Origin: Gammaproteobacteria bacterium
GTDB lineage: Bacteria; Pseudomonadota; Gammaproteobacteria; UBA6429
Reading direction: 5' to 3'
Assembly: GCA_003232015.1 (NCBI GenBank)
Contig: QIKU01000214.1
Location: forward strand, 1-19,113
Length of the DNA stretch: 19,113 bases
The translations under genes were made by a program, and so were the position numbers. Below, piece by piece: positions 2-19,113 of this stretch. Numbering within the stretch: position 1 is the stretch's first letter; each line of letters begins with the position of its first letter. Under the pieces are notes generated by a model. That model saw only the letters and a list, made by a program, of their open reading frames with translations. It did no database searches and had not been told where the DNA came from.

Positions 2-931
2 ATTTCGGCCGCTAGCCCATCAATGTTTGGTTTTGACAGCTATACCGAATTATCCAAACCACGCGACCTTGAAAAAATATTTGATTCGGCAGAATACATT
101 CCCTGGCGCAGCTTCCGTGATAGTGAAGATTCGCGCTTCGTTACCTTAACCATGCCACGGGTATTAGCCCGTCTGCCATACGGCGAAGCAACAAAGCCGG
201 TTGAAGTGTTTAACTTTGAAGAAGCACGTGTCACCAGCGATGGCAAGCACCTCGAAGGCGAGCATGATGAATATTGCTGGATGAATGCAGCTTACACAAT
301 GGGCACTACCATCACAAAATCATTTGCCGAAAATGGCTGGTGCACCAGTATCCGTGGCGCAGAAGGTGGCGGCAAAGTGGAAGGCTTGCCTTCGCATGTT
401 TTTGTCAGTGATGACGGTGACATGGATCAAAAGTGTCCCACTGAAATCGGTATTACCGACCGACGTGAAGCGGAACTCAGCAAACTGGGCTTCTTACCTT
501 TATGTCATTATAAAAATACCGATTACGCGGTCTTCTTTGGTGCGCAAACAACGCAAAAACCAAAATCATACGATGACCCGGATGCCTCCTCTAATGCCGA
601 AATATCTGCACGTCTGCCTTATGTAATGGCCACTTCCCGTATCGCCCATTTTCTTAAAGTGATGGCACGCGATAAAGTAGGTTCTTTTATGGAAGCCACC
701 GACGCAGAAGAATGGCTTAATCGCTGGATAGGCAACTATGTAAATGCCAGCCCCGGTGCCAGCCCAGAAATGAAAGCAAAATTCCCGTTTGCTGAAGCAC
801 AGGTTGAAGTAAAGGAAATCCCTGGCCAACCTGGCGTATATAATGCCGTGGCGTGGATGCGCCCGTGGTTGCAGATGGAAGAACTGACCGCTTCATTACG
901 GCTAGTCGCAAAAATACCAAAAGCAGGATAA
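2..931 (+). CDS. tssC: T6SS contractile sheath large subunit TssC (VipB), 5'-truncated by window edge
   Basis: This is the C-terminal ~309 residues of TssC, which with TssB forms the contractile sheath around the Hcp tube. The reading frame is open from base 2 and reads ISAASPSMFGFDSYTELS, which matches the middle of canonical TssC, so the methionine at 23 is internal and the true start lies upstream of the window. Family landmarks in view are the KPRDLEKIF / EYIPWRSFRDSEDSRFV / LTMPRVLARLPYG block and the C-terminal region VEVKEIPGQPGVYNAVAW. The family is about 500 residues, so roughly 190 are missing. The gene ends with TAA at 929-931. Fifty bases later a second TssC-family gene begins, followed by tssE, tssF, tssG and tssH. 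GC looks higher here than in the genes from 8728 on. I am sure of the family, and by order this is the canonical copy next to tssB. Confidence 0.95.
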   Translation: MSAASPSMFGFDSYTELSKPRDLEKIFDSAEYIPWRSFRDSEDSRFVTLTMPRVLARLPYGEATKPVEVFNFEEARVTSDGKHLEGEHDEYCWMNAAYTMGTTITKSFAENGWCTSIRGAEGGGKVEGLPSHVFVSDDGDMDQKCPTEIGITDRREAELSKLGFLPLCHYKNTDYAVFFGAQTTQKPKSYDDPDASSNAEISARLPYVMATSRIAHFLKVMARDKVGSFMEATDAEEWLNRWIGNYVNASPGASPEMKAKFPFAEAQVEVKEIPGQPGVYNAVAWMRPWLQMEELTASLRLVAKIPKAG

Positions 932-937
932 GTAATC

Positions 938-958
938 GCGGGGAGCAAACCTCCCCGC
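938..958 (+). promoter_or_regulatory. GC-rich intercistronic hairpin between the two tssC genes
   Basis: An 8-bp perfect stem (GCGGGGAG at 938-945, CTCCCCGC at 951-958) closes a 5-nt loop (CAAAC). It begins 6 nt after the first tssC stop codon and is followed by the T-rich ATTTATTT. By shape it could be a weak intrinsic terminator, or a processing or stability element that lowers or protects transcripts of the second tssC. The T-tract is interrupted by A, so full termination is unlikely and genes downstream can still be read through. The hairpin is seen directly; its function is inferred. Confidence 0.6.
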
Positions 959-981
959 ATTTATTTAAATGGATAAAAGCA

Positions 982-2499
982 GTGCTGTCGCCTAATAATG
1001 TAGAATCACCACAACAACCTATTAATTGTAGTCCTGTATTAAAGTCACTTACCGAACAGCCGGCCTATATAACCAGCCTTGATGAATTCCTGGCTGAAAC
1101 CGATACCATCAAAGCACTTTTTTACTGGTTAAGTGAACATGCACAGGAAAAATTAATACAGAACACCGATGATATTACAGCAGTTATCCACCGTTCTATT
1201 TCTGAAATTGATCACTTAATTAACGAACAGCTTAATAAAATAATCCACCACTCTCACTTCCAAAAACTGGAAGCCTCTTGGCGTGGACTCTGGTTTCTTA
1301 CTGTTCAGGCTGAAGATGCCCGCAATGTAAAAATAAAAGTACTGGATGCGAGTTGGGCAGACGTTACTAAAGATATTAGCCGCGCACTGGAATTTGACCA
1401 GAGCCAGTTATTCCAGAAGATTTATAATAACGAATACGGTATTGCCGGTGGCGAACCCTTTGGTGTACTTATTGGCGATTATGAAATAAGCCACCGAACA
1501 TCCAAACGCCATCCTCAGGATGACCTGGCCACGCTCGAGGGCATGGCTGAAATTGCAGCAACAGCCTTTGCCCCCTTTATTGCTGGTGCCTCAGCTGAGT
1601 TATTTGGTTTGGACAACTTTACAGGCTTAAGCCAGCCACTCAAATTACAAAATATTTTTAACCAGAAAGAATATATAAAATGGCAGCGATTCCGAGACAA
1701 GCCCGATTCTCGGTTTGTCGGCTTAACCCTTCCCCGAATCTTGCTGCGTTTACCCTACCGCTCCGAACCCGGTAGCTATAAAGGTATCTTCTTCTACGAG
1801 CAAACTGCAACAAGTAGCAACGAGCATTACCTTTGGGGTAATGCCTGCTATGGCTTTGCCGCTATTTTAATTCGTGAGTTTATCAACGTCGGCTGGTTTG
1901 GACATATACGTGGCGTTATACGCAACCAGATCGGTGGTGGTCTGTTAACTACACTGCCGGTGGAGACATTTAAAACCGATGCAGAAAATATCCAGCCGAA
2001 ACCCATCACCGATGTTATTATCACTGATAACCTTGAACGTGAACTAAGTGATCTTGGCTTAATACCACTATGCCAGTGCTACGACAGCCCGTTTGCCGCT
2101 TTTTATAATAATCAGTCAGTCCATAAGCCAAAACTACAAAGCAACAAAGAAGCCAATGTAAATGCCAAACTCTCCGTTATGTTACAGCATATCTTATGTG
2201 GTTCACGCATTGCGCACTATATAAAAGTCATCTTCAGAGACAAAATTGGCTCATTTCAATCGGCCAGCATGGTCGAAGAACATATCCAGAACTGGTTGCA
2301 TAAATACACCACTGGGCGGGAAGATTTAGAATGGGAAGCGCAAGCACGTTATCCGCTACGTGAAGCTTCGGTTAACGTAAAAGAACACCCGGCCAAACCC
2401 GGCCAATTTTTATGTGTTATTCATATGAAACCACATTATCAACTAGATCAAATGGTTTCTGAGCTTGAACTTGCAACTGAACTGTTAAAAGCAGGATAG
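982..2499 (+). CDS. Second TssC-family sheath protein (TssC paralogue)
   Basis: This is a full-length TssC-family protein (about 505 residues from the GTG at 982) in tandem with canonical tssC. In order it shows the helical N-terminal part with KLEASWRGLWFL, the FDQSQLFQKIYNNEYG / GGEPFGVLIGDYE motif, LEGMAEIAATAFAPFIAGAS, ELFGLDNFTGL and DSRFVGLTLPRILLRLPY, so both sheath-domain halves are present. An in-frame ATG at 853 would give 548 residues, but it lies inside the upstream tssC and its product would cross the hairpin at 938-958. There is no other in-frame ATG before 1543, so GTG 982, with GGA eight bases upstream, is the most sensible start. The stop is 2 nt before tssE. Tandem tssC copies are known, for example in Agrobacterium, where as I recall one copy is dispensable. 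This copy may form mixed sheaths or a specialised sheath segment; that is inference. Confidence 0.88.
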   Translation: MLSPNNVESPQQPINCSPVLKSLTEQPAYITSLDEFLAETDTIKALFYWLSEHAQEKLIQNTDDITAVIHRSISEIDHLINEQLNKIIHHSHFQKLEASWRGLWFLTVQAEDARNVKIKVLDASWADVTKDISRALEFDQSQLFQKIYNNEYGIAGGEPFGVLIGDYEISHRTSKRHPQDDLATLEGMAEIAATAFAPFIAGASAELFGLDNFTGLSQPLKLQNIFNQKEYIKWQRFRDKPDSRFVGLTLPRILLRLPYRSEPGSYKGIFFYEQTATSSNEHYLWGNACYGFAAILIREFINVGWFGHIRGVIRNQIGGGLLTTLPVETFKTDAENIQPKPITDVIITDNLERELSDLGLIPLCQCYDSPFAAFYNNQSVHKPKLQSNKEANVNAKLSVMLQHILCGSRIAHYIKVIFRDKIGSFQSASMVEEHIQNWLHKYTTGREDLEWEAQARYPLREASVNVKEHPAKPGQFLCVIHMKPHYQLDQMVSELELATELLKAG

Positions 2500-2501
2500 T
2501 C

Positions 2502-2999
2502 ATGGCTCAAGTCAATAAAAAAAGAAAGTTACGCGCCTCAATACTCGACCGATTACTGGACGATGAACCACAAATCACTGTTGATGCCGATACCAATAAA
2601 TACCATAAACTCAAAAATTTACGCAACAGTGTCCGTCGAGATCTTGAAAACTTGTTAAACACCCGACATCGAATTATGGAGCCAGCGGAGGAACTCAGTC
2701 AACTGGAGTTGTCACTGCTAAATTATGGCTTACCGGATCTCGCAACCGTGAATATGTCTGACATGGATAATAAACAACAATTCATCGATAATTTTGAATC
2801 CATATTAAGAGATTACGAACCCCGCTTTAAATCCGTTAAGGTTTCATTGCAGGATAATACCGACAAGCTCGACAGAACGGTGCGGTTTAGAATTGATGCC
2901 ACACTTTATGCTGACCCCTACCCGGAAGTTATCGTTTTTGATTCTGTACTAGAGCCAGTAACCCGTTCTATCAATGTAAAAGAGGTTGGCAATGTCTGA
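2502..2999 (+). CDS. tssE: T6SS baseplate subunit TssE (gp25-like)
   Basis: TssE is the wedge component of the T6SS baseplate, related to phage T4 gp25, and starts sheath polymerisation. The 165-residue length fits the family. The hallmark NSVRRDLENLLNTR is at about residues 42-55, the YGLPDL motif at 75-80, and a C-terminal beta segment (RFRIDATLYADPYPEVIVF) is near 128-146. The ATG at 2502 follows the upstream stop by 2 nt, which implies translational coupling. The end overlaps the start of tssF. There is no signal peptide; the protein should act in the cytoplasm at the inner membrane. Identification is secure from the motif and the gene order. Confidence 0.95.
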   Translation: MAQVNKKRKLRASILDRLLDDEPQITVDADTNKYHKLKNLRNSVRRDLENLLNTRHRIMEPAEELSQLELSLLNYGLPDLATVNMSDMDNKQQFIDNFESILRDYEPRFKSVKVSLQDNTDKLDRTVRFRIDATLYADPYPEVIVFDSVLEPVTRSINVKEVGNV

Positions 3000-4827
3000 C
3001 GAACTGTTACCCTATTTTGAAAAAGAGCTCGCCTTTATCCGCCAGATGGGGTCAGAGTTTTCAAAAGAACAGCCTAAAATTGCAGGGCGATTGGGTATTA
3101 ATGCTGACACCATTGAAGATCCACATGTTTCAAGATTAATCGAAAGCTTTGCGTATTTAAATGCGCGTATACAACACAAACTTGATGATGATTTTCCTGA
3201 ACTCAGTGATTCGCTACTCAATGTACTGTTCCCACATTATCAGCGCCCTGTTCCATCAATGAGCATTATTCAGTTTAACGCAGATAAAGAGCAACTCGAC
3301 TCAAGTTACACCGTCGAAAAAAATGCTTTACTCGAAACTGAATTATTTAAGGGTGAGCGTTGCCACTTTACAACCATATACCCAACTGAAATATTGCCGA
3401 TACAAGTCACATCGGCCAAAGTTATTGGCCGCCCCTTTGTGACACCCGGCTCATCTTCTGTAAAGGGTGCCCAGAGTGTACTAAAAATATCACTGGAAAC
3501 TTTTTCTAAAGAAATACTGTTTTCAGAACTTAATCTCGACACTGTGCGTTTTTATTTAAAAGGCCAATCTCAACATATTAATCCTTTATACCAGTTATTA
3601 TTAAACGACTGCTTAAATGTAGTGATGGCAAAATCTGAAGATGACACCACACCAGTTTACTTAGGTAAAGACTGCATTCAGGCGGTTGGGTTTAATGATG
3701 AAGAAGGTATGTTGCCTTACCCGCCTTCGTCCTTTACCGGTTACCGATTATTAACCGAATACTTTATTTTCCCTGAAAAGTTTATGTTCGTTGACTTTAC
3801 CGGCTTAACTAAAAAGTTAGCGGCGCACACAAGCAATCAACTGGATTTGTATATTTACTTTTCAACATCCGATGTTGAACTCGAACATAATATTTCAAGC
3901 GAAACCTTCCTGTTAGGGTGCACCCCGGTTATTAATTTATTTAAACAAAAAACAGATCCGATAAAGCTTGACCATACTCAGGATGAATATCAGATTATCC
4001 CGGACGTACGTCGCCCGGCTGGCTTCGAGGTTTATTCAATTGATAAAGTCACTGCAACCAACTCATCGGGTGAACATGAAGAATTCCATCCAATCTATGG
4101 GCTTACCCACGAGCATCAGGAAAGTGAAAGCCATTCTTTCTGGTCTGCATCACGGAGACATTCCAAGCTTGGTGATTTTGAAAGAGACGATGCAACCGAT
4201 GTTTATATTAACCTTGTCGACCTTAATTTTAATCCCAACCAGGCCGATGATCGTATTCTTATTATAAATACAACCTGCAGTAACCGTAATCAGCCCGCCA
4301 AACTCCCGTTTAATAACGAACAACCCGATTTGCAATGTGTTGACAGCGCACCGCCCTGCTCAAGCATTCGATGTATAACAAAACCAACAGTTAGCATACA
4401 ACCACCATTACGAAACCATGCACGCTGGCGATTGTTATCACATCTTAATTTAAACCATTTATCACTGACCGGCCAGGATAATGCCACAGAAGCATTAAAA
4501 GAAATTTTGCGCCTTTACGATTTTGGTGAATCAGCCGTCACCCGCGCATTGATTGCATCCATCGACAATGTCAATGCACACCCTATCAGCGCACCACTCA
4601 ATATCGATGGTCATGCCACCTTGTGCCGTGGCATTGAAGTTGAAATAACACTGGATGATTCACAACTCGCTGGCAGCAGCAGTTTTCTATTTGCCAGTAT
4701 TCTGGAACACTTTTTTGCTTTGTATTGCTCCATTAATTCATTTACTCGTGTACTTGTAAGATTAAAAAATAAAGAAGGTTATCTAAAAAAATGTCCTCCC
4801 CGAGCTGGCAAAAAAATACTTCTGTAA
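2992..4827 (+). CDS. tssF: T6SS baseplate subunit TssF
   Basis: TssF (ImpG/VasA family) forms the baseplate wedge together with TssG, TssE and TssK. The protein is about 611 residues. It opens with LLPYFEKELAFIRQMGSEF, then DPHVSRLIESFAYLNARI and HKLDDDFPELSDSLLNVLFPHY (residues 43-83), all typical of TssF, and ends with the family-like CPPRAGKKILL. I chose ATG 2992 rather than the in-frame TTG at 2986 because AGAGG lies 6 nt upstream of it and the product then begins MSDELLPYF. The start overlaps the tssE end by 8 nt and the 3' end overlaps tssG by 37 nt, so the three are translationally coupled. Confidence 0.95.
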   Translation: MSDELLPYFEKELAFIRQMGSEFSKEQPKIAGRLGINADTIEDPHVSRLIESFAYLNARIQHKLDDDFPELSDSLLNVLFPHYQRPVPSMSIIQFNADKEQLDSSYTVEKNALLETELFKGERCHFTTIYPTEILPIQVTSAKVIGRPFVTPGSSSVKGAQSVLKISLETFSKEILFSELNLDTVRFYLKGQSQHINPLYQLLLNDCLNVVMAKSEDDTTPVYLGKDCIQAVGFNDEEGMLPYPPSSFTGYRLLTEYFIFPEKFMFVDFTGLTKKLAAHTSNQLDLYIYFSTSDVELEHNISSETFLLGCTPVINLFKQKTDPIKLDHTQDEYQIIPDVRRPAGFEVYSIDKVTATNSSGEHEEFHPIYGLTHEHQESESHSFWSASRRHSKLGDFERDDATDVYINLVDLNFNPNQADDRILIINTTCSNRNQPAKLPFNNEQPDLQCVDSAPPCSSIRCITKPTVSIQPPLRNHARWRLLSHLNLNHLSLTGQDNATEALKEILRLYDFGESAVTRALIASIDNVNAHPISAPLNIDGHATLCRGIEVEITLDDSQLAGSSSFLFASILEHFFALYCSINSFTRVLVRLKNKEGYLKKCPPRAGKKILL

Positions 4828-5891
4828 CTCAAGATTTAACAACTAACACATCCGCATACTCTTTTATACAAACGGTGCGGCTGTTAGAGCGCAGTTGTTT
4901 TTATGATTTACAACTGGAATCAGATAGCAAAAACATAATGCCAGTTGCGCGTTTTGTACCGCCGGAAACCGAAGCTATTCGTTTTCATAGTCAGCAAAAA
5001 CTGGAATTTCACTCATCAGATATTGCAACTGTAGAAAAAGACAAGAGCAAGCAATGGCAGGTTTTAGTTAATTTAATGGGGCTAACGGGTGCAACCGGTG
5101 TATTGCCTTACCATTACACTGAAATGATCCTGCAGCGTCTTAAAATGAAAGATAAGTCACTGTTGGCATTCCTTGATCTGTTTAACCACCGAACAATTTC
5201 ATTATTCTATCAAGCATCGGTTAAATACCGTCTGCCGATTGAGTATGAAAGAAAAAGGCTAACGACAAAACATAACCCGGAAAAAGATGCACATACAAAA
5301 GTCCTCTTATCACTTATCGGACTTGGGACAAAACACCTCGATAACCGGCTTTATACCAATGATGAGTCACTGCTTTATTATAGTGGTTTATTAAGCCAGA
5401 ACGTAAAAACATCGACGAACTTAAAACAAATATTACAACGCCATTTTTCCATACCGGTACAAATAAAAGAATTTGTCGGCCAATGGCAACCTTTAATTGA
5501 CGACGTACGCACACGACTTACATCAAGAGCACACCCCAAAGGTCAAAATGCCAGCTTAAGCCGTTCAGCCATTCTTGGTAAAAAAGGCTGGTATGCGCAA
5601 GGGAAAATTCGCATTATTCTTGGGCCACTCGATAAAAAACAACAACAACACTTTGCACCGGGCACGCCTGCCCTCAAAGCGTTAAATGAAATTGTACGAC
5701 TTTATGCCGGCCTGGAATGCAATTATGATTTTATCATACGAGTTAAACGTTCAGACATCCCCGGCAAAGTGGAACTGAGTAAAAAATCACCACCCATAGT
5801 GGGTTGGAACACATGGCTACCAAAATCAGGGCAACAGAAAGAAAAAAGCAGCACGGTTGATATTGTAGTATCGCCTAATAGATTGAAATAA
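4791..5891 (+). CDS. tssG: T6SS baseplate subunit TssG
   Basis: TssG (ImpH/VasB family) pairs with TssF in the baseplate wedge. The 366 residues include VARFVPPETEAIRFHSQQKLEF-type N-terminal sequence (about 52-73), the conserved NLMGLTGATGVLPYHYTE block (94-111), FLDLFNHRTISLFYQA (127-142) and, toward the C-terminus, KKGWYAQGKIRIILGPL. ATG 4791 lies within the last 37 nt of tssF with GAAGG 12 nt upstream. The gene ends with TAA; 50 AT-rich bases without a clear hairpin separate it from tssH. Motifs and gene order agree, so the call is secure. Confidence 0.95.
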   Translation: MSSPSWQKNTSVTQDLTTNTSAYSFIQTVRLLERSCFYDLQLESDSKNIMPVARFVPPETEAIRFHSQQKLEFHSSDIATVEKDKSKQWQVLVNLMGLTGATGVLPYHYTEMILQRLKMKDKSLLAFLDLFNHRTISLFYQASVKYRLPIEYERKRLTTKHNPEKDAHTKVLLSLIGLGTKHLDNRLYTNDESLLYYSGLLSQNVKTSTNLKQILQRHFSIPVQIKEFVGQWQPLIDDVRTRLTSRAHPKGQNASLSRSAILGKKGWYAQGKIRIILGPLDKKQQQHFAPGTPALKALNEIVRLYAGLECNYDFIIRVKRSDIPGKVELSKKSPPIVGWNTWLPKSGQQKEKSSTVDIVVSPNRLK

Positions 5892-5941
5892 AATAAAATT
5901 TAAAAATATATAAGTAGAATCAGAAATAAAAAGGAACGATT

Positions 5942-8695
5942 ATGCTCAGCATCGACTTAAAATCATTAGTAGGGAAACTAAATAACCCTTGCCAAACAGC
6001 ACTCGAAGGTGCCGCAGGATTTTGCCTGTCACGCCAGCACTACAATGTAGAAATTGAGCATTGGCTGATTAAATTATTAGAAATACAGGACAGTGACCTG
6101 CTTGCGATTTTAGAAAAGTTTGAAATTAACCCGGGTAAGTTTGCCCAGGAATTAAATAAGGAACTGGAATACCTTAAATCAGGTAACACCCGTGCCCCGG
6201 CACTATCACCCTCGGTGGTCGAGCTGGCAAAAAGTGCCTGGATGCTGGCATCGATTGATTACCAACACCCGCTGGCAACATCAGCACATCTTTTAGGGGC
6301 AATGCTGCTTGACGACAATTTACGACGTGCAACCGAGGCCACATCAGGTGAACTGGATAAAATCACGCCCGACTCATTACGCGAAGTTATTCGTTCTATT
6401 GTAGGCAGTACAACCGAATCACGTGATTCCCATCTCGGCGATACATCAGCTACCCCTTCAGACAAAAACACTACCGGAACACCTAGCAAAACACCTTCAC
6501 TGGATAAATTCACCATCAATCTGACCGCATCTGCAAAACAGGGGAAAATTGATGCCGTACTGGGTCGGGATGAAGAAATTCGGCAAATTATTGATATATT
6601 AATTCGCCGTAGACAAAATAACCCCATCCTTACCGGCGAAGCTGGCGTAGGTAAAACAGCGGTTGCTGAAGGTTTTGCATTGCGTATCGCGTCCGGCGAT
6701 GTCCCTGACCAACTGAAAAATGTCTCACTGCTAAGTCTTGACCTTGGCTTATTACAAGCCGGTGCCAGCGTAAAGGGAGAATTTGAGAACCGATTAAAAT
6801 CGGTTATCAGTGAAGTTAAAGCATCACCTGAACCGATTGTACTATTTATTGATGAAGCCCACACCGCAGGCGGCAAAGAAGGCCAGGGCGATGCCGCTAA
6901 TTTATTAAAACCCGCACTCGCGCGCGGCGAACTCAGAACCATTGCCGCCACCACCTGGGCAGAATATAAAAAATACTTCGAACGCGATGCCGCTTTAACC
7001 CGGCGTTTTCAGGTTGTAAAAATAGAAGAACCCGATGAAGAAAAAGCCATTAATATGATGCGCGCTATTTCGGTAATGCTACAAAATCACCACGGTGTTC
7101 GCATTATGGATGAAGCCATTATTGACTCGGTTAAATTATCCAGCCGTTATATTACCGCACGGCAATTACCCGATAAGTCGGTTAGCTTGCTCGATACGGC
7201 CTGCGCACGTGTATCTTTAAGCCAAAGTGCCACCCCCGTAGCGGTTGAAGATACACGACGTCGAATTACACAATGCCAGACAAATATAAAATTACTTGAA
7301 CGAGAAAATGCTGTTCTCGGAAATTGTGATGACCGCATTGCTTTACAGAACGCTGAATTAAAGGAAATGCAAGAACGCTTGCTAAAGCAGGAAGCACAAT
7401 GGGATACAGAAAAACAAATTGTAGACAAAATCCATCAGTTGCAAAAAGAAATTGAGGATGACTTCCATGCAACAGATACAGGAAAGAAAGAAATAGCAGA
7501 AAAATCAAAAAGCAGTAAAAAAATATCACCCACAGAAAAAAACAAAATAAAAACAGCATTACAGAAATTAATGAACGAATTAACAAAAGTTCAGGCAGAA
7601 GAACCCATGATTCAGATAAATGTCGGAAGCCAGGCAATTGCCGAAGTTGTTGCAAACTGGACAGGCATTCCCGTTGGAAAAATGATGACAGATGAAATTC
7701 ATTCGATTATGGATCTCAAAAATATTCTGAGTAACCGAATTATCGGTCAACCACATGCATTAGAAGCCATCGCGCAAAGTATCCGCACATCAAGAGCCGG
7801 TTTAACCGACCCAAAAAAACCGGTAGGTGTATTCTTTATGGTCGGCTCCAGTGGCATCGGTAAAACTGAAACCGCACTGGCACTGGCCGATGTTCTTTAT
7901 GGTGGCGAGCAGAATATCACCACTATTAACATGTCCGAATTTAAAGAAGAACATAAAGTATCGATGCTATTAGGTTCACCCCCAGGCTATGTCGGCTACG
8001 GTGAAGGCGGCGTACTCACCGAAGCCGTTAGACGCAAACCACACAGTGTTATTTTGCTCGATGAAATGGAAAAAGCCCACCCCGGTGTTCAGGACATTTT
8101 CTATAATCTGTTTGACAAAGGAACCATCAAGGATGGCGAAGGACGTGATATTGACTTCCGAAACACCGTTATTATCATGACATCCAATGCGGGAGAAGAA
8201 CATATCCGTGCCATTTGCAAAGCCAGCGAAAAACGTCCTGAACCGGATGTGTTGCTAGATAATTTCCGCCCCCAGCTATTAAACTATTTTAAACCCGCAT
8301 TCCTGGGGAGAACCACGGTTATCCCCTACTACCCATTAGCTGATGAAGACTTAATGAAAATATGCAAAATAAATATGCGGAAAATCGAGAAAAGAGTTCG
8401 GGAAAATTACAATGCCCGGTTTGGTTATAATGATGATGTTATTTTACATATTGTTGCCCGAAGTCAGGAAGTAGATACCGGCGCACGCAACATAGAAAAT
8501 ATACTCACTAAAACCATGCTGCCAGAGTTGGCGTCAGAATGTTTATCTATGATGGCCAATAATATTGAAATAGCAAACATTTATGTTGATGTAACAGATG
8601 AAGGCTGCTTTGAATACACTATAAACAAGCAACCGACCTCGACTAAAAATACACAGCAGCAGAAGCCAAAAAAAACAGCGCTTATTGAAGACTAA
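5942..8695 (+). CDS. tssH: T6SS AAA+ ATPase TssH (ClpV), sheath disassembly
   Basis: ClpV is a ClpB-like hexameric ATPase that recycles contracted TssBC sheaths. The 917-residue protein has a Clp N-domain (about 1-150) that would bind the sheath, then a Ser/Thr-rich linker (about 160-190). AAA1 carries Walker A GEAGVGKT at 232-239 and Walker B FIDEAH around D304/E305. A coiled middle domain rich in Lys/Glu/Gln follows (about 440-560). AAA2 carries Walker A GSSGIGKT at 635-642 and Walker B LLDEMEKAH at D707/E708, plus GSPPGYVGYGEGG. The C-terminal ~20 residues are a low-complexity Lys/Thr/Gln tail. The middle region has an unusually long, lysine-rich insert, making the protein somewhat longer than many ClpV. 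The start is supported by AAGGA 7 nt upstream. Both ATPase sites look intact. The context, last of the sheath/baseplate genes, separates it from general ClpB. Confidence 0.96.
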   Translation: MLSIDLKSLVGKLNNPCQTALEGAAGFCLSRQHYNVEIEHWLIKLLEIQDSDLLAILEKFEINPGKFAQELNKELEYLKSGNTRAPALSPSVVELAKSAWMLASIDYQHPLATSAHLLGAMLLDDNLRRATEATSGELDKITPDSLREVIRSIVGSTTESRDSHLGDTSATPSDKNTTGTPSKTPSLDKFTINLTASAKQGKIDAVLGRDEEIRQIIDILIRRRQNNPILTGEAGVGKTAVAEGFALRIASGDVPDQLKNVSLLSLDLGLLQAGASVKGEFENRLKSVISEVKASPEPIVLFIDEAHTAGGKEGQGDAANLLKPALARGELRTIAATTWAEYKKYFERDAALTRRFQVVKIEEPDEEKAINMMRAISVMLQNHHGVRIMDEAIIDSVKLSSRYITARQLPDKSVSLLDTACARVSLSQSATPVAVEDTRRRITQCQTNIKLLERENAVLGNCDDRIALQNAELKEMQERLLKQEAQWDTEKQIVDKIHQLQKEIEDDFHATDTGKKEIAEKSKSSKKISPTEKNKIKTALQKLMNELTKVQAEEPMIQINVGSQAIAEVVANWTGIPVGKMMTDEIHSIMDLKNILSNRIIGQPHALEAIAQSIRTSRAGLTDPKKPVGVFFMVGSSGIGKTETALALADVLYGGEQNITTINMSEFKEEHKVSMLLGSPPGYVGYGEGGVLTEAVRRKPHSVILLDEMEKAHPGVQDIFYNLFDKGTIKDGEGRDIDFRNTVIIMTSNAGEEHIRAICKASEKRPEPDVLLDNFRPQLLNYFKPAFLGRTTVIPYYPLADEDLMKICKINMRKIEKRVRENYNARFGYNDDVILHIVARSQEVDTGARNIENILTKTMLPELASECLSMMANNIEIANIYVDVTDEGCFEYTINKQPTSTKNTQQQKPKKTALIED

Positions 8696-16480: not shown

Positions 16481-16887
16481 ATTCACCTGACCTCATTTTT
16501 ATCATAGGAGCAGGCGGCGCTGGCATTGGAATCATTTTACTCGCTATCTTAATACCCTTTTTAATTATTATGCATAACCTGCTGTATCGACGACTCGATC
16601 CCATTCTTTTTCAGTCGCCCTGGTTTAACGAACAACAACTGGTTATGTTTAGCGCCTGGCCATTGAGTTTTATTAAAACCGTCATCTATATGTTCTTAAT
16701 CGCCTACCCGGATTATATTCGTAAGAAAAAACGTTTCAACAAACTTGAAAACGTTCCCACTGTTGAACCTGCTATAAAAATAGCGTGTAAAATCTATACC
16801 GCACTGCATGTGGCTTTTGCAGTAATTGGAGTTAGCTGGTTGCTATTTATTTTCAGCGTCTACGCATTGGATAACTGGTTTAGTTAA
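16471..16887 (+). CDS. Small three-helix membrane protein; candidate immunity protein
   Basis: This 138-residue protein has three predicted membrane segments, at about 8-33 (LIFIIGAGGAGIGIILLAIL...), 63-82 (FSAWPLSFIKTVIYMFLIAY) and 108-134 (ALHVAFAVIGVSWLLFIFSV). A basic cytoplasmic-type loop (YIRKKKRFNK) lies between the second and third. ATG 16471 lies inside the last codons of the LysM gene, so expression is coupled to it. Immunity proteins against membrane-depolarising T6SS toxins are typically small polytopic inner-membrane proteins encoded directly after the toxin, which fits. There is no recognised family. The stop is 11 nt before repeat copy 2. Confidence 0.75.
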   Translation: MSIDSPDLIFIIGAGGAGIGIILLAILIPFLIIMHNLLYRRLDPILFQSPWFNEQQLVMFSAWPLSFIKTVIYMFLIAYPDYIRKKKRFNKLENVPTVEPAIKIACKIYTALHVAFAVIGVSWLLFIFSVYALDNWFS

Positions 16888-16898
16888 AAAACTGGAGG

Positions 16899-16995
16899 TA
16901 GAACATGCTAACAAGCTCAGGTCTTGCCCTGTACCCTTACTATCCGCACAGGTGCAACCTTAACAGTTTCGAGTCAAAAGGCACGGGGCAAGACC
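16899..16995 (+). repeat. Structured repeat, copy 2 (~97 nt), downstream of the putative immunity gene
   Basis: This is the direct repeat of 15277-15374. The outer stem is a perfect 13 bp when one base pair beyond each repeat edge is included (TCAGGTCTTGCCC 16917-16929 with GGGCAAGACCTGA 16986-16998). The inner hairpin is CCTGT 16928-16932 with ACAGG 16948-16952, again with CCCTTACTATCC in the loop. Compared with copy 1, one inner base pair changes from T-A to G-C on both sides, so the pairing is kept while the bases differ. This suggests that the structure, not only the sequence, is maintained. Confidence 0.85.
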
Positions 16996-17079
16996 TGACC
17001 CTGACGGACTTGCGGGGCTAATTATTTAGTATCTCTTTGTTTTTATTACCTTATATTGGGATATTCGTGGGGATTCGTC

Positions 17080-17122: not shown

Positions 17123-18082
17123 TTATCCCTCACTATTCTCAACAGACTCAGAATATTTAACGTGTCCAGTAAGTCTACGTAAATCCTCATCTTTAACTTT
17201 ACCTGAATTAATCAAGTGCTTATAAGCACGAACCTTATTTCTATATCCTTTCGTTAATCTTGCTTTTTCTCCATTTACTAATAATCCGTGAACTTTTAGT
17301 CGTTGTCCTTTTGTAGCGTCTGCAAAATATTCTTTATTTGTAGATAACTCCCAGCATGTTCCCTCAAATATATCTTTTACACTTTGTTTAATGATTTCAG
17401 GAAATTCATTTATACCAGAGAAAATAATATCATCTGCATAGCGTGTAAATGTAATACCATGTTCAACCGACAAAGCAGATAACTTCTCATCAACAAGTTT
17501 CATTACTAAATTTGAAAGGACTGGACTAGCTGGTGAGCCTTGAGCCAACTTATCTATATAACAACATAATGGTACTATTAGATCACATGCTTTTTGAGAG
17601 TAGCCCAATTCTAATAACGCACGTTTCATAACACCTTCATTTGTTGTTGAAAAGAAATCTTTAATATCGACTGAATATATCCAAGTTGAATTACAATGTT
17701 TCTGTGCTGCATATACTGCAGAACGACCAGAAACAAAACCAAAAACATAATCTTCAACAGGTAAAGCTAAAGCCAAATGATAACCAAACCATTTTTGAAT
17801 AACTTTTATTGAAACTTTTGGAGCTTGTATTTTTCTTTTTTTCTTACCTTTGCGTATTGTGAATTCTCTATAGTATTTATAATTTTGAAACCGCATCGCA
17901 TTTACAAATTTAACTGTATAGCCAAAAAGAATTGCTAAACAACTTGAAGAAACAATGGGGGGTAGACCTTGTTCAACTAACGAACGAATTTCCACCTCAT
18001 ATTGGATACGGAGATTTTCTGGAAGAGCAGATAGATAATCTTCAACTGTTGAATAAGAAACTAGGAGTGGTGGGGCTAACAT
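17123..18082 (-). CDS. Retron reverse transcriptase
   Basis: This 319-residue RT is within the usual retron range. It shows the finger motif RKIQAPK (83-89), motif A VDIKDFF (138-144), motif B-like LAQGSPASPVLSN (179-191), catalytic YADD (215-218) and KVHGLLVN (263-270), the retron VTG-type region with His for Thr. The retron-typical NAxxH region appears as AAQKH (125-129). The enzyme would copy part of the adjacent non-coding RNA into msDNA. Start ATG 18080-18082 has GAAGAG about 8 nt upstream. The a2 arm of the retron RNA lies within codons 4-7, so folding of the RNA may compete with translation. An accessory gene is upstream on the same strand. There is no fused effector domain, and catalytic residues look intact. 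Confidence 0.93.
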   Translation of the reverse strand: MLAPPLLVSYSTVEDYLSALPENLRIQYEVEIRSLVEQGLPPIVSSSCLAILFGYTVKFVNAMRFQNYKYYREFTIRKGKKKRKIQAPKVSIKVIQKWFGYHLALALPVEDYVFGFVSGRSAVYAAQKHCNSTWIYSVDIKDFFSTTNEGVMKRALLELGYSQKACDLIVPLCCYIDKLAQGSPASPVLSNLVMKLVDEKLSALSVEHGITFTRYADDIIFSGINEFPEIIKQSVKDIFEGTCWELSTNKEYFADATKGQRLKVHGLLVNGEKARLTKGYRNKVRAYKHLINSGKVKDEDLRRLTGHVKYSESVENSEG

Positions 18083-18229
18083 GGCAAATTCTCTTCATGT
18101 TTCATTAATTCCGTTGGAATAACATCCAGCGATTCGAAGTAGCGCTGGATGTTATTCCAACGCCCTTCTGTGCCTAGCCTTCGCAAACGGGTATGATGCA
18201 CACCCTCACGAGTAAGAACCACCACTCCT
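18063..18229 (-). ncRNA. Retron msr-msd non-coding RNA
   Basis: On the minus strand, between the accessory gene stop and the RT, the RNA has the parts expected of a retron primer-template. The a1 arm AGGAGTGGTGG (18229-18219) is exactly complementary over 11 nt to the a2 arm CCACCACTCCT (18073-18063). An msr-like hairpin GGGTGTG/CATACCC with loop CAT (18205-18189, one G-U pair) follows a1. The msd-like hairpin is a perfect 20-bp stem (18162-18143 with 18131-18112) around an 11-nt loop. I could not place the branching guanosine. The boundaries are set by the a1/a2 arms and are approximate. Confidence 0.85.
18112..18162 (-). repeat. Perfect 20-bp inverted repeat, the msd stem
   Basis: Arms at 18112-18131 and 18143-18162 are exact reverse complements, with loop 18132-18142. 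No T-tract follows on either strand, so a terminator is unlikely. Its position inside the a1/a2 arms and before a retron RT identifies it as the template for the msDNA hairpin. Confidence 0.88.
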
Positions 18230-18239
18230 GAGGTCAATT

Positions 18240-18986
18240 TCACCACTTTCTTCTCCCAAGATCAAGTGCCCTGCCAATATCAGAACTCCTATAATTAGCA
18301 CCTGCTGGAACAACGCTCAAAGCTTCTGATGTTAAAGCATAATTGCCTGATTTTTCTCGAATTATTAACTTTTTCTTTCTCAACTGATCTAATTTATGAT
18401 TAAGCCATTTCTCACTTATAGTAGGAAACTCTTCCGATATGGCGCCTAAAAATTCTTTTAAGTTAATCGGTTGCCGTAATTTTAAAAATCTAAGTAGCCA
18501 TGGAAATGTTGGTAAATCACTCTGAGAGTTTATCCATTGTATAAGTCCATAGTGAAACCCTGCATCTTCTATCAATTTCTTATAATATTTCTCTATCTCA
18601 TCATTTAATTGAGATCCCTCATCTATAACCTCTACCCAAGCATTAACTTTATCTTCCTCGACAAAAGACATATAGAAAGATAGTACTTTACCTTTAAAGC
18701 GGTGATTGAGCATATTATGAATTGCACTTTCTAAATCTTGGTGGTTCTCCCATAAAGAATAAATAACTTCAACATCTCTTGAAAATTTTTCTTTTAATCG
18801 AAGGCTAAGATTATTCATCTGTCTGTAAGAAGTAAAACCAGCCTTAGCCTTACCAGCTACTTTTTCACGAGACACATATAGTAAAATAGCTTCATCACTT
18901 GGACGAAAACTTACATTATTAATAAAATTGCACAATCGCCTATCTATATGTGCCATAATTTCTTCTGCATCAAGCAAGGCCAACAT
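18240..18986 (-). CDS. Retron-associated accessory protein with C-terminal winged-helix-like region
   Basis: This protein is about 248 residues from ATG 18986-18984, which has AAGG 9 nt upstream. The frame also opens at a GTG at 19022, adding 12 residues, but that codon follows a stop directly, has no ribosome-binding site and lies at the insertion-sequence end. The N-terminal ~120 residues are a mixed alpha/beta region I do not recognise (SDEAILLYVSREKVAGKAKAGF ... GKVLSFYMSFVEEDKVNAWVEV). The C-terminal part resembles a winged helix (LKEFLGAISEEFPTISEKWLNHKLDQLRKKKLIIREKSGNYALT, in two pieces about 176-220 of this form), ending in a basic tail, GRALDLGRRKW. The stop is 10 nt upstream of the a1 arm, so gene, RNA and RT form one unit. 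By position it is the retron effector or a DNA-binding partner. The gene may have lost its native 5' end to the insertion. Confidence 0.75.
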   Translation of the reverse strand: MLALLDAEEIMAHIDRRLCNFINNVSFRPSDEAILLYVSREKVAGKAKAGFTSYRQMNNLSLRLKEKFSRDVEVIYSLWENHQDLESAIHNMLNHRFKGKVLSFYMSFVEEDKVNAWVEVIDEGSQLNDEIEKYYKKLIEDAGFHYGLIQWINSQSDLPTFPWLLRFLKLRQPINLKEFLGAISEEFPTISEKWLNHKLDQLRKKKLIIREKSGNYALTSEALSVVPAGANYRSSDIGRALDLGRRKW

Positions 18987-19017
18987 CTCCCCATACCTTA
19001 CGTATCGTTTTACTGAA

Positions 19018-19113
19018 TGCACTTAGAAGTGGACCCCGAAAATGAGACAGTAGCATAAGTGATAATCCTGATGTATTTTAACGTACGACAGGAGAAAGAC
19101 AATGAGACGAAAA
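19018..19113 (+). mobile_element. Left end of an insertion sequence (probably IS3-like), cut by the window edge
   Basis: Bases from about 19018 (TGCACTTAGAAGTGGACCCC, then GAAAATGAGACAG) resemble an IS3-type terminal inverted repeat, with a TG end and a GGACCCC...GAGACA body. About 50 nt of leader leads to a ribosome-binding site and a short open start. The exact boundary (19018-19024) and the family are uncertain, because the other end and the target duplication are outside the window. Confidence 0.5.
19102..19113 (+). CDS. Start of a probable transposase gene (MRRK...), truncated by window end
   Basis: ATG at 19102 is preceded by GGAG at 19091-19094 with 7-nt spacing, and encodes Met-Arg-Arg-Lys before the window ends. 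Basic starts of this kind are common in insertion-sequence orfA products. With four codons visible, the call rests on the apparent inverted repeat upstream. Confidence 0.4.

Follow-up and report, generated by a model that had tools for sequence, protein, structure and literature searches.

Overlap of the putative closing stem of a type IX retron RNA with the first codons of the reverse transcriptase gene

Genes at the retron locus

The window analysed in this study is the whole stretch of 19,113 nucleotides of contig QIKU01000214.1 (assembly GCA_003232015.1), from a gammaproteobacterium, and a retron occupies its right end, on the minus strand (Table 1). The reverse transcriptase (RT) matched the PADLOC model RT_IX nearly end to end (9e-135, profile positions 1-315 of 317), with the runner-up retron model at 7.4e-63, and it carries the catalytic YxDD motif as YADD at residues 215-218, of which Y, D and D were invariant in 30 aligned relatives. 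The open reading frame upstream of the RT gene matched the model HTH_IX (5.8e-63) and encodes a winged-helix (WH) protein, the probable start of which is ATG 18986 and not GTG 19022, as judged by comparison with the retron of Shewanella insulae (locus L001). For both proteins, the nearest solved relatives by sequence are those of retron-Kva2, a type IX system of Klebsiella variicola (PDB 36ht; PMC13405049), at 1.2e-75 for the RT and 6.9e-24 for the WH protein (36ht_B). Judged from sequence, the combination of these RT and WH genes identifies the locus as a type IX retron.

The type IX set in PADLOC comprises RT_IX, HTH_IX and HEPN_IX. The window shares the first two matches, whereas of the HEPN protein it shows, upstream of the WH gene, an apparent C-terminal tail only; in Kva2 the HEPN protein is whole, and phage defence through this HEPN tRNase is reported in the available passages of PMC13405049. 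The tail in the window (SKTIRKVWGDVGLA) is similar to those at locus L010 (KSIIKVWKEVGLA) and in S. insulae (LILRTWKELGLVGYK*), and its stop precedes the RT ATG by 890 nt, as in L001, L003, L011 and L053. The remainder of the gene either lies outside the window or has been cut by inserted DNA, and the HEPN effector may be interrupted at the window edge. We take the adjoining stretch, 19028-19113, to resemble the end of an insertion element; no match to an insertion sequence was obtained for it in a plasmid collection.

Two further features of the window were observed. Its left part (853-8695) is a type VI secretion cluster, with a VipB sheath protein, a gp25-like protein, TssF, TssG and a ClpB-like AAA ATPase. 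In addition, an inverted repeat of 27 nt (81% complementary) is located at 16912-17003, between an open reading frame ending at 16887 and the RT gene, and gave a sub-threshold match to an Rfam microRNA model.

Table 1. Coordinates of the retron features in the window
Feature	Position	Strand	Description
Type IX retron RT	17123..18082	-	319 aa; ATG 18082-18080
a2 arm	18063..18073	-	RT codons 4-7; exact complement of a1
Match of the distant-group covariance model	18067..18230	-	good over msr and msd; its ends do not define the arms
msd stem, 3' arm	18112..18131	-	pairs with 18143-18162; 11-nt loop
msd stem, 5' arm	18143..18162	-	20 bp, 100% complementary
msr hairpin	18189..18205	-	GGGTGTG-CAT-CATACCC
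a1 arm	18219..18229	-	exact complement of a2; starts 10 nt past the WH stop codon
WH gene, type IX	18240..19022	-	open reading frame from GTG 19022
Apparent last HEPN codons (SKTIRKVWGDVGLA*)	18970..19014	-	short; putative

Type IX loci used for comparison

Twelve type IX loci with DNA, the window included, were compared. Seven of them form a near group (the window, L001, L003, L009, L010, L011 and L053), in which the RTs of the six relatives are 48-59% identical to that of the window, and five form a distant group (L004, L006, L007, L008 and L051), with RTs 43-47% identical to it. L001, L004, L007, L008 and L051 were scanned with PADLOC, and RT_IX was the best model in all of them; L003 and L006 were outside that scan. 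Genome searches with the RT_IX model supplied L009, L010, L011, L051 and L053, at 2.4e-128 or better. Duplicate rows were removed (L002, identical to L001, and L020-L022, identical to L006-L008).

Type IX retrons were scarce in the genome searches; for example, six of 394 genomes were above the cut-off, two of these matches being weak and to other types. The RT region of L009 gave no match in one DNA search of Escherichia coli genomes, nor did the window RT in a search of phage records. Two scans of viral contigs for the msr-hairpin pattern yielded 37 and 3 stretches, and the three stretches with a type IX RT were L006-L008. In the other 34 of the 37, a covariance model recovered only the seed hairpin, at E 0.14 or worse, or nothing.

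Two of the relatives have features of their own. The S. insulae locus matches all three PADLOC type IX models, and its retron is flanked by stretches (1777-3342 and 6002-6538 of L001) that we take to resemble TniQ/TnsD-type transposition proteins; this retron may be the cargo of a transposon. The RT gene of L010 has an internal TAA, and its RNA and the pairing described below are still kept.

The retron RNA and its closing stem

An msr-msd RNA, closed by the inverted repeats a1 and a2, is supported between the WH and RT genes both by folding and by the covariation described below. The single-sequence fold, in which the a1/a2 stem closes, reached -82 kcal/mol (z -5.4), and none of 200 shuffled sequences was as low. 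The msr hairpin and the perfect 20-bp msd stem, both proposed in an earlier note on this DNA, were found at the positions given in Table 1. The 11-nt msd loop carries CTTC (GAAG in the DNA copy), which recurs in 10 of the 11 other type IX loci (L009 has CATTC) and fits the loop G26-A27-A28-G29 of the Kva2 msDNA, as given in the passages of PMC13405049 that were available. The Rfam scan of the whole window returned no retron family, its sole match up to E = 1 being to a microRNA model elsewhere; PADLOC is described in the available passages of PMC9252829 as having msr-msd models of its own.

The earlier note had further claimed that a1 pairs exactly with bases inside the RT gene, and the sequence agrees. 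The RT gene reads ATG TTA GCC CCA CCA CTC CTA from 18082, and a2 consists of codons 4-6 and two bases of codon 7; read on the plus strand, ccaccactcct (18219-18229) and aggagtggtgg (18063-18073) are exact reverse complements. The last base of the start codon lies 6 nt before a2. The distance from the WH stop to the RT ATG is 160-169 nt in the near group and 143-148 nt in the distant group, and with so tight a gap the RNA fills the space between the genes and extends into the RT gene.

A second pairing was also observed in the window, between GGCTA in the msr (18175-18179) and TAGCC in RT codons 2-3 (18074-18078), which would stack near a1/a2. Over the seven near-group loci, just 68.6% of its cells pair.

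Position of a2 in type IX and other retrons

In each of the 12 type IX loci, a2 falls within the start of the RT gene or spans it, at one of two offsets. In the near group, it begins at base +10 of the RT gene in the window and at +11 in the other six loci, and in the distant group it begins at the U of the RT AUG. With the alignment anchored by hand on a CTCC-like core, the shift between the two groups is 9 bases, that is, three codons in frame. The distance from a1 to the msr hairpin is 13-14 nt in the near group vs 5 nt in the distant group, which places a1 about 9 nt further out, and the conserved N-terminal peptide of the RT moves along with a2. We infer that the a1/a2 helices of the two groups are one element.

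For comparison, a panel of retron loci of other types was assembled, of which 14 of 17 were scanned; L056 (no annotated start), L064 (RNA apart from the RT) and L059 were left out. In L062, L063 and L052 the second-ranked helix was taken as a1/a2, as the first looked like the msd, and the TTG start of the RT in L054 is uncertain. Inverted repeats flanking a hairpin RNA beside the RT are likewise found in retrons of types I-A, I-C, II-A and III-A (L005, L012, L055, L057, L061, L062 and L065). In these loci, and in 11 of the 14 scanned loci overall, a2 stops 1-43 nt upstream of the RT start, whereas in the window it is inside the gene. Two loci that are not type IX, namely L058 (III-A branch, on a plasmid of Shigella sonnei) and L052 (best matched by the type XIII model), have an a2 candidate that extends across the RT start codon, and the position of a2 in L066, the fourteenth, is ambiguous. 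Thus, the panel in general shows an a1/a2 stem near the RT start, and an a2 wholly within the gene is a trait of the near group. The RNA/coding overlap may have arisen more than once, as suggested by the candidates in L058 and L052, each of them a single locus.

A location of a2 inside the RT gene is undescribed in the available passages of PMC13405049, PMC12548924, PMC8989520, PMC6868368 and PMC9252829. Kva2 was compared through its proteins and the published text rather than its DNA, and neither 'overlap' nor 'start codon' appears in the main text of PMC13405049. The overlap may be implicit or stated in the 2020 classification, the 2024 census or the PADLOC msr-msd models. As far as the sequences go, the retron in the window is an ordinary one of type IX, and its RNA/coding overlap is type-wide (12 of the 12 loci examined) and undescribed in the portions of the literature searched.

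Covariation of a1 with the RT codons

An 11-nt match is modest when taken alone, as about 3% of 300 shuffles of the flanks scored as high in a search zone of 170 x 75 bases. The statement in the earlier note that a chance match is unlikely does not hold for the 11-nt match by itself, and it holds once the relatives are counted. A blind scan for helices put a1/a2 at the top of the ranking in 11 of the 12 type IX loci; in L008, a different helix came first. Over the 11-pair core, with anchors set by hand and with five poorly pairing outer columns lying outside the 132 cells counted, 126 of the 132 cells are standard pairs and 123 are Watson-Crick pairs. When a2 was shuffled within groups, the number of pairs was reached in 3 of 5000 shuffles and the number of Watson-Crick pairs also in 3 of 5000; shuffling across all loci never reached the pairing (0 of 5000), which partly mirrors the difference between the groups. 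The match is secure because of the 12 loci and their covariation and not because of its length alone. As the helix recurs in all of them at one of two offsets, with compensation, the probability that the complement arose by chance is close to nil, even with the roughly 3% of shuffled flanks that give an equally good helix.

Two-sided changes were found in 2 of the 11 counted pairs of a1/a2 in the near group, with 92.2% of cells paired, and in 4 of 12 pairs in the distant group, with 60 of 60 cells paired; L011 represents a U-G intermediate. Since the window and L011 share states, the two-sided changes are few and partly inherited together, and independent events are few. The whole structures, written from the window for the near group and from L007 for the distant group, exceeded all 500 shuffles in both groups for the percentage of paired cells and for the covariation score, although alignment of the msd stem is poor in the distant group (66.3% of cells). 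The number of further pair types was reached by 1 of 500 shuffles in the near group and by 134 of 500 in the distant group, the latter being no excess. RNAalifold, unprompted, recovered the a1/a2 helix in the alignments of both groups. The alignment of relatives called for in the earlier note accordingly has a1 and the RT codons co-varying, with compensated changes, and in none of the 12 loci are the codons conserved without pairing to a1. The sequences thus indicate that a1/a2 is conserved by base-pair compensation and that this stretch is selected as RNA besides coding for protein.

The question of whether the N-terminus is kept for the protein alone, with a1 merely adapting to existing codons, is raised by the recurrence of P, L and S in the RTs of both groups and of Kva2, where PLLFSY aligns with PLLVSY of the window RT. 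The conservation of this peptide is strong. Among the best 120 of 928 relatives of the window RT (itself included), 102 have a start of the M-x-A-P-P-L-L-V-S-Y type, 7 more have the motif within 60 residues and 11 are without a match; among the best 120 of 919 relatives of the L007 RT, 102 start with M[RKQ]xP, and 108 have this motif within 60 residues. The silent positions, however, are also held. Among same-residue comparisons in the near group, the codon is identical in 105 of 127 over codons 3-9 vs 1567 of 3417 elsewhere, the six best of 108 seven-codon segments begin at codons 1-6, and the silent positions of CTC CTA are the same in all seven loci. No such excess of codon identity was found over a2 in the distant group (11 of 26 vs 479 of 1410 elsewhere). 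In addition, all but one of the six two-sided changes concern third codon positions, in codons 4 and 5 for the near group and in codons 2, 3 and 4 for the distant group; the exception, in L004, affects the first base of codon 3. Conservation of the protein alone does not account for the compensated pairs, and an a1 that is still adapting in order to pair implies that the helix is functional; conservation of the N-terminus solely for the protein is thus very unlikely, and the protein and RNA layers probably both contribute to it.

A covariance model from the distant group

A covariance model was built from the five distant type IX loci only. It matched the window at 82.1 bits (E 5.8e-21) and the other six near-group loci at 48-65 bits; the same search found nothing up to E 0.1 in five retron loci of other types and 34 viral loci known from the pattern only. 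One additional weak match (E 0.041) fell within the L003 RT gene, and each of the five distant loci was matched on its opposite strand as well.

The closing stem of the model is off the true a1/a2 in all seven near-group loci. In the window, it is placed on bases beside a1/a2, with four non-standard pairs; it is mostly deleted in L003 and L053 and unmatched in L009, and in L001, L010 and L011 the match stops at the AUG. The match in the window was consequently dropped as independent support for a2, the alignment having revealed the misplaced stem. At the sequence level, the model supports common descent of the msr-msd and not the position of a2.

These placements bear on the view that the true closing stem has its arm upstream of the RT start and that the coding match is secondary. 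Such a view is in keeping with the 11 of 14 other retrons in which a2 is upstream, with the model itself, by which the 3' arm is located no further downstream than the AUG in five of the seven near loci, and with the short pairing of GGCTA to RT codons 2-3 in the window. We consider it highly improbable, as the stem drawn by the model contains non-standard pairs or is mostly missing in the near group, while the coding arm has a conserved place, covaries and was found by consensus folding that had not been prompted.

Accessibility of the RT start

According to the earlier note, closure of the a1/a2 stem encloses the RT start codon and the region that recruits ribosomes. The a2 arm does lie inside the start of the RT gene, but the predicted openness of the AUG in the window is unaffected by a1 (0.17 with a1 and 0.15 without it at +1..+9), and occlusion of the start codon by a1 is not supported there. 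The predicted effect of a1 in the window falls on +10..+20, with an openness of 0.60 without a1 and 0.01 with it; at -16..-5, the values were 0.64 with a1 and 0.55 without it. In the other six near loci, openness at +1..+9 was predicted to be 0.31-0.62 with a1 and 0.23-0.63 without it, so that in most of them the AUG is, if anything, slightly more open with a1. The corresponding values in the distant group were 0.12-0.15 with a1 vs 0.19-0.82 without it, and the AUG itself is thus predicted to be tied up by a1 in the distant group only. Nor is enclosure of the region upstream of the RT start special to this retron, given the 11 of 14 retrons of other types with a2 just before the start.

In 8 of the 12 type IX loci, a mini-ORF of 5-9 codons was observed that begins between the msd stem and the RT gene and ends with a stop codon overlapping the RT start; that of the window runs from ATG 18105 to a TAG over RT codons 2-3 (18076-18105). 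Mini-ORFs of this kind arise in 9-17% of shuffled spacers per locus, and the loci are not independent. In the distant group, the same spacer holds a small covarying hairpin.

The feedback proposed in the earlier note, by which a transcript would serve as primer-template or as RT mRNA but not as both, would correspond to an evolved switch, in which RT bound to its own closed RNA represses RT translation until all of the RNA is occupied. The AUG lies within the stem in 5 of the 12 loci, with a2 inside the initiation footprint in the other seven, the ribosome-binding sequence appears weak or absent by eye in several loci (e.g., L003 and L053), and the mini-ORF stops over the RT AUG could couple translation. 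In contrast, removal of a1 is not predicted to open the AUG of the window, that of most of its near relatives is predicted to be, if anything, slightly more open with a1, and retrons commonly have a stem near the RT start. On the basis of these predictions, such a switch is possible but doubtful.

Proposed competition between template and messenger

The explanation that we favour, and regard as somewhat more likely than not, is that of a type IX retron (HEPN remnant, WH gene, msr/msd and RT gene) in which the 3' arm of the closing stem lies within the first RT codons, such that the uses of the transcript as template and as mRNA compete. According to the available passages of PMC8989520, retron RTs prime from the 2'-OH of a guanosine adjacent to the a1/a2 repeats. 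By analogy with known retron biology, the RT would bind the closed RNA, prime from the 2'-OH beside a1/a2 and copy the msd; a retron is expected to make msDNA linked to its RNA through a 2'-5' bond. Because a2 is coding, a ribosome initiating on the RT gene would have to open the a1/a2 stem, and a transcript bound by RT could not be translated at the same time; the two uses would compete on one molecule, and RT and RNA would tend to be kept in step. We think that this competition is an outcome of compact packing and not a dedicated switch. The sizes given for Kva2 in the available passages of PMC13405049 (an msr of 37 nt and an msDNA of 55 nt) count against the closing-stem reading, since the mature ends may sit away from a2.

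A more far-reaching idea is that the first stretch to be copied contains or adjoins the RT start codon, so that msDNA synthesis would copy this codon and RNase H would then destroy the start of the messenger. One RT mRNA would then be consumed for each msDNA, an irreversible feedback on single molecules that would set the ratio of RT to msDNA, and the mini-ORFs ending on the RT AUG would be the means by which the ribosome opens the stem. This idea depends on where copying begins, and the Kva2 sizes suggest that the mature DNA may start nearer the msd stem or be trimmed; we regard it as unlikely.

If the favoured explanation is right, the RNA and the RT gene would be inseparable across the whole of type IX, and the making of msDNA should be disrupted when the first codons are silently recoded. 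Cloning designs in which the RT of a type IX retron is codon-optimised or tagged, or in which the ncRNA and the RT are on separate plasmids, would be affected, and the balance between RT and RNA in retrons would become directly testable by silent mutations.
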